Positions 48,858 through 49,579 of a DNA stretch of 54,079 nt are shown here, one piece after another. This DNA is from a bacterium (GTDB lineage: Bacteria > Cyanobacteriota > Vampirovibrionia > Gastranaerophilales > UBA9971). The notes below the pieces were generated by a model. The model was not told the origin of the DNA. It saw only the letters and a program-made list of their open reading frames with translations, and did not search any database. Where the stretch lies: NCBI GenBank assembly GCA_037147175.1, contig JBAWVS010000012.1, positions 1-54,079 on the forward strand, read 5' to 3'. Each line of letters begins with the position of its first letter. The first letter of the stretch is position 1. The position numbers were made by a program, and so were the translations under genes.

Positions 48858-49110
48858 TTAAATAGCCCTTTTAGAATGCCTAACTCTCTACAATAGTCTA
48901 ACATATTAGAGGGTTTTGGGCTATTACAAAATATATTTCAAAAGTGCTTCTTAAAAACTCTGGCCGTTTGGCTATAAACTATAGCCACATGGATATAAAA
49001 AAATATGTTATAGTGAATAATAAAAACGTTTTTATGTCAAGAAAGCAATTATATACCCTCTTTTGCAGGAGGAGGAGTTTGGTGTGGTTACTTATGTGCG
49101 TTTAGTCAGA

Positions 49111-49190
49111 GTATAAACTTAGTTTAAACAGGGTATAAACTGTGTTTATAGAATAAATTTATTAAACATAGTTTAATACAGAGTTTATAC
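49111..49190. promoter_or_regulatory. array of three TAAAC-N3-GTTTA palindromes with outer half-sites
   Basis: Site 1 is TAAAC-TTA-GTTTA (49114-49126), site 2 ATAAAC-TGT-GTTTAT (49135-49149), and site 3 ATTAAAC-ATA-GTTTAAT (49161-49177). Centres are 22 and 27 bases apart. The array opens with GTATAAAC and ends with GTTTATAC. It lies 38 bases before the start at 49229. The pattern fits a multi-site operator or iteron-like cluster. The rest of the 48858-49228 gap has GGCTATA-AAC-TATAGCC (48973) and no gene. Confidence 0.7.
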
Positions 49191-49228
49191 AGGATGATTG
49201 AACAAAAAAATTACGGGTATGAGAAAAG

Positions 49229-49579
49229 TTGAATAAGTTTTATTTTGATCCTGAAAAAATGGAAAATTCGCCGCTAAGGCAGCATGTTAAAGAAAAAATG
49301 AAGAGTTTAGACAAAGAAGAGTCGCAGGAAAAGGATAACACAGAGAAAATTACAGAAGTTTCTTTAATTAACGGGTTTTATCCGATAGAAAAACCGGAAT
49401 TTCATCGCATAGCGAATCAGTTGACTTTGTGGGGCGTAAGTTCTTCAGGGGCGGTAATTAAACGGGAAGGGCCGTCTTTTGTTCGGATGGCGGTTGATAT
49501 TACGCTGAACAATCTCGATAAGGCAAAATCGCCAAAAGCTTATTTCAGGGGTGTGCTTAAAAAATTACAACTATCTTAG
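49229..49579 (+). CDS. small uncharacterised protein downstream of the palindrome array
   Basis: The 116 residues start at TTG 49229 with weak GAGAAAAG upstream. The N-terminal half is charged and probably flexible (KMENSPLRQHVKEKMKSLDK). The C-terminal half looks folded, and its end, LDKAKSPKAYFRGVLKKLQL, resembles the C-terminal helix of DnaD- or plasmid-replication-type proteins (pattern NPKAYF-x-x-x-L), but I cannot assign a family. No membrane segment is seen. It is convergent with the TPR gene and overlaps it by 4 bases. The array upstream suggests that it is regulated, possibly by its own product. Confidence 0.6.
   Translation: MNKFYFDPEKMENSPLRQHVKEKMKSLDKEESQEKDNTEKITEVSLINGFYPIEKPEFHRIANQLTLWGVSSSGAVIKREGPSFVRMAVDITLNNLDKAKSPKAYFRGVLKKLQLS

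Follow-up and report, generated by a model that had tools for sequence, protein, structure and literature searches.

The window, a 54,079-nucleotide stretch of DNA from the Gastranaerophilales genome G000, which belongs to a non-photosynthetic relative of the cyanobacteria, contains a small gene, X, among chromosomal housekeeping genes. The DNA before X carries three exact copies of a TAAAC-N3-GTTTA dyad (start-to-start spacing 22 and 27 bp), as reported in the first-pass annotation; the copies, their positions and both outer half-sites were verified. Two further features, neither noticed earlier, lie 5' of the array: a 62-bp promoter, R1, about 100-200 bp upstream of the dyads, and a mini-ORF with an SD (Table 1).

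Table 1. Features of gene X and its upstream region (positions in the window)
Feature	Position	Strand	Sequence	Remarks
Promoter R1	48954-49015	+		Boxes 1 and 2 in tandem plus the extended -10; nine copies aligned from three genomes
Box 1	48961-48974	+	TGGCCGTTTGGCTA	
Box 2	48982-48995	+	TAGCCACATGGATA	21 bp after box 1
Extended -10	49006-49014	+	TGTTATAGT	Conserved among copies
Palindrome	49020-49035		ATAAAAACGTTTTTAT	Perfect; at the putative start; both G028 leaders retain the ACGT core
SD and mini-ORF	49067-49105	+		Strong SD, 49067-49075; 7 codons (MWLLMCV), 49082-49105
Whole array	49111-49190		GTATAAAC; GTTTATAC	Outer half-sites at 49111-49118 and 49183-49190
Dyad 1	49114-49126		TAAACTTAGTTTA	Exact; identical 13-mer present twice in a G028 leader
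Dyad 2, core	49136-49148		TAAACTGTGTTTA	
Dyad 2, extended	49134-49150		TATAAACTGTGTTTATA	7-bp arms
Dyad 3, core	49163-49175		TAAACATAGTTTA	
Dyad 3, extended	49160-49178		TATTAAACATAGTTTAATA	8-bp arms
Gene X	49229-49579	+		116 aa; disordered N-terminus, helical C-terminal domain

The earlier claim that the repetition exceeds chance holds locally. Across the whole window, 0.11 dyads are expected by chance and three are seen, and the triple appeared in none of 100 shuffles. Shuffling of the AT-rich 371-bp intergene produced three same-arm dyads at P = 0.0008, and shuffling of the local 105 bp produced them in 0 of 5000 trials. Repeated dyads built from a single half-site beyond chance expectation, one of the properties looked for in an operator array, are present.

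Beyond the window, the motif shows no general enrichment. A genome-wide search, proposed in the first-pass annotation as a check, returned counts below those of the reversed control motif in G000 (9 versus 22) and G026 (5 versus 14) and slightly above it in G028 (9 versus 6), which is Melainabacteria GWA2_34_9, another species of the same genus. A genome-wide regulon was rejected on these counts, which lie at or near control level and point to a local array rather than a global regulon signal. Three of the nine G000 sites make up the array, and the others lie mostly inside ORFs by eye. One of them, TATAAACAATGTTTA (L014:1833-1862), is immediately 5' of a gene for a WYL regulator that adjoins a type I-like DNA methyltransferase gene; this regulator was rejected as the dyad binder since the genus yielded no full-length orthologue of it. 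Elsewhere in the order, G193, G184 and G305 also have double-dyad loci, which are unrelated to the window locus in both sequence and genes. In f2 genomes, dyads of the TTTAAAC-N3-GTTTAAA type lie beside small conserved unknown genes (L008:1025; L017, L019:1501-1546), again at loci unrelated to that of the window.

A second array occurs in G028, where the leader of a laccase-domain gene is homologous to that of X in the window and has three dyads, two of them built on the TAAAC half-site. The order is TAAACTTAGTTTA, then GTATATACTTAGTATATAC, then TAAACTTAGTTTA again, and the middle dyad (TATAC/GTATA) is changed on both arms relative to TAAAC/GTTTA with its pairing kept. The orthologous X leader in G028 falls within a run of 152 N.

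R1 was recognised as a dispersed element by a DNA search with the region upstream of the dyads. Its nine-copy consensus is AAAACTTTAGCCRTTTGGATGTAA-WCTTTAGCCACATGGATGTAA-N3-ATATGTTATAAT, with boxes of the form TAGCC-N4-GGMTR placed 21-22 bp apart. In a leave-one-out matrix that excluded the window copy, R1 scored 78.7 bits against 1.4 bits for the next-best place in the window, which is R1's own 21-bp shift. The -10 element at 49009-49014 would set the transcription start near 49021, which would place the dyads inside the 5' leader, about 95-170 nt into it. A separate perfect dyad, TGGCTATA-AAC-TATAGCCA (48969-48987), spans both promoter boxes.

An R1 profile run against ten genomes of the family found four strong copies in G000, two in G026 and three in G028, the last also with a single-box copy, as well as three in G024, one of them partial; a fifth, weak G000 match is the reverse overlap of a strong copy. 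In G000, the targets are a terminase-portal cluster, X, a GIY-YIG gene and an MNT-HEPN pair, the last with R1 about 370 bp away and a degenerate -10. In G000, G028 and G026, three genomes of one genus, R1 precedes an orthologous cluster that begins with a 141-aa-type protein and a TerS-like protein; terminase and portal follow where the contig reaches, and a major head protein is present in G026. The remaining targets are dispersed: in G028, the X orthologue (R1 with one box), IetAS and the laccase-domain gene; in G026, SspC-like/SspD; and in G024, which belongs to another genus, an endolysin-type amidase with DUF1353 and a tail-fibre-like gene. Loci of the defence and TA-type targets are L086:1-2510, L088:906-2450 and L083:5967-7100. 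The G024 copies and the copy with one box before the X orthologue lie outside the set from which the model was built and therefore give independent support for R1, and the sharing of this promoter across the regulon is well supported. Six of the ten family genomes have neither a strong R1 nor a terminase. Two results count against the explanation favoured below: some R1 targets have no phage link, and G024 carries R1 copies with no terminase match. The R1 pattern was absent from the viral contigs.

The cluster behind R1 is one version of an element that is widespread in the order. Terminase was found in 230 of the 383 sampled genomes, nearly always as one match; identity outside the genus is 60-73%, and gene order varies between families. 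The loci that were read (L111:1301-11218; L171:10181-19674; L146) sit among housekeeping genes, with no integrase or replication genes seen by eye, part of the flanking ORFs having been searched. In two f2 genomes, the operon encodes an amidase, a virion protein, a major head protein, a terminase small subunit, a portal and a terminase (family matches from G079 only), with housekeeping genes on both sides and a small LuxR-family HTH gene directly 5'. A small HTH gene also lies 5' of the cluster in G000, G028, G026 and G004, and the f1 and f4 proteins match sigma-region-4/GerE weakly; in BLASTP, the two HTH types do not align, the small HTH of another family having no match to the 80-aa HTH protein. 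In f4, the promoter of the cluster is placed as in the window's family and likewise combines tandem boxes with an extended -10, here three copies of GTGGCC-N4-GG followed by TATGTGCTATAAT. Apart from the cluster promoter, no GGCC-N4-GG pairs were found in G004 and four other genomes, so dispersal of the R1 type is confined, as far as seen, to the family of the window. Matches to terminase, portal and major head protein show that the chromosome holds head and packaging genes of phage origin. Compact, mostly single-copy and placed among housekeeping genes, the cluster is GTA-like in form and makes Gastranaerophilales a candidate host of a gene transfer agent. The literature on Melainabacteria, Vampirovibrionia and Gastranaerophilales was searched for GTAs, with preprints and most subscription journals outside the scope, and nothing relevant was returned.

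The modelled C-terminal domain of the X protein is related to phage lysis-neighbourhood proteins, whose genes adjoin holin-like and amidase/endolysin genes in prophage and phage loci of Gastranaerophilales: in G158 the neighbour is an amidase, and in an IMG/VR phage the neighbours are a peptidase-like gene and a weak match to BhlA holin. The sole close orthologue of X found, in G028, stands behind a promoter of like kind with different neighbours; weak order-wide matches (L007-L011) proved spurious. In the phage contig with an X-domain gene, a tail-fibre gene, a repeated segment that looks variable and a reverse-transcriptase gene (L169:3709-6991) together resemble a diversity-generating retroelement.

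Taken together, the best single explanation, to which we give slightly less than an even chance, is that the dyads are operators arrayed in tandem within the 5' leader of X, and that X is an outlying member of a small regulon run by the phage-derived, GTA-like element. In such an arrangement, the R1 boxes, centred near -32 and -53, would be occupied by an activator, for which the small LuxR/sigma-region-4-like HTH protein encoded immediately 5' of the structural cluster is the probable candidate, and transcription would begin near 49021. Some 95 nt downstream of that start, the TAAAC-N3-GTTTA dyads would be bound by a dimeric regulator that blocks or tunes elongation, placing X under dual control. 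The dyads thus probably give a dispersed gene of phage origin its second level of control. The recurrence of an identical 13-mer at non-alignable places, together with the weakness of the single stems, favours a sequence-specific dimeric DNA binder. Of the two ideas in the first-pass annotation, regulator binding is the one that gains from the same-half-site dyads in the homologous G028 leader. Against an operator array, dyad arrays are known from these two leaders only, the other R1 copies have no such array by eye, and no regulator gene adjoins X.

The array might instead act as RNA, as a leader-peptide or hairpin attenuation element controlling translation or elongation of X; this is less likely than an operator array, and on its own terms we consider it unlikely. 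The transcript could fold into one 81-nt hairpin, an option likewise overlooked earlier, or into small stems, and the folding score of 49105-49195 is strong (z = -4.8). However, palindromic operators fold as well; the G028 leader reaches only -1.7, single stems have little stability (0 to -5.1 kcal/mol), and there is no U-run terminator 3' of the array. In favour of attenuation, the mini-ORF ends just 5' of the array, and the G028 leader has an SD and seven codons (MRLLTWL) at the equivalent place. Retained pairing in the middle dyad of G028 is likewise in its favour, whereas the recurrent 13-mer is not needed for pairing alone.

It is improbable that the dyads are now functionless, a product of chance or a decaying repeat in an AT-rich leader. 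The lack of genome-wide enrichment and the sporadic distribution of X, which is missing from the corresponding G026 locus, would fit such a history; the rarity of the triple under local shuffling argues against it, as does the presence of same-half-site dyads in the homologous leader of a different gene. Iterons or a plasmid or phage origin initiated by the X protein, suggested earlier because the array lies beside a gene whose C-terminus was felt to resemble some replication proteins loosely, are very improbable, as X has no Rep family match in Pfam, PHROGs or PDB sequences, its model matches no PDB fold at E<=0.001, no plasmid or phage record searched contains it, its surroundings are chromosomal, and a regulon promoter precedes it.

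An extension of the operator-array explanation is possible, and we regard it as doubtful: the R1 regulon of the GTA-like element may join anti-phage genes (IetAS, SspC/D, MNT-HEPN) to head, lysis and tail genes, with the dyad leader as a second checkpoint on members such as X. If so, defence genes would be switched on alongside particle production. If the operator-array explanation is true, the promoter would serve as a signature with which to search for a phage-derived element present in most of the order's sampled species, and would tie this element to accessory and defence genes at scattered loci. It would also become directly testable what turns such elements on and which other genes they turn on.

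Phage control regions of the lambda OR type use multiple operators. The window array resembles them in having three dyads of about 13-19 bp, 22-27 bp apart, beside a gene. Unlike lambda OR, the dyads lie past the putative start rather than around the promoter, and no repressor gene was seen beside them. The likeness to WYL defence-island regulators is confined to the G000 dyad before the WYL gene, a single site within chance expectation. The closest parallel is RcGTA, whose head-spike, tail-fibre and lysis loci are dispersed and controlled by GafA (PMC9638019). Here too, a chromosomal phage-derived head cluster is accompanied by separate lysis-type and tail-fibre-like loci with a common promoter, and a gene for a dedicated DNA-binding regulator lies nearby. 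The two differ in that the present system, known from its genes alone, counts defence genes among its R1 targets, and has an SU10-like portal, a phrog_267 head protein and, in place of GafA, a small HTH protein.
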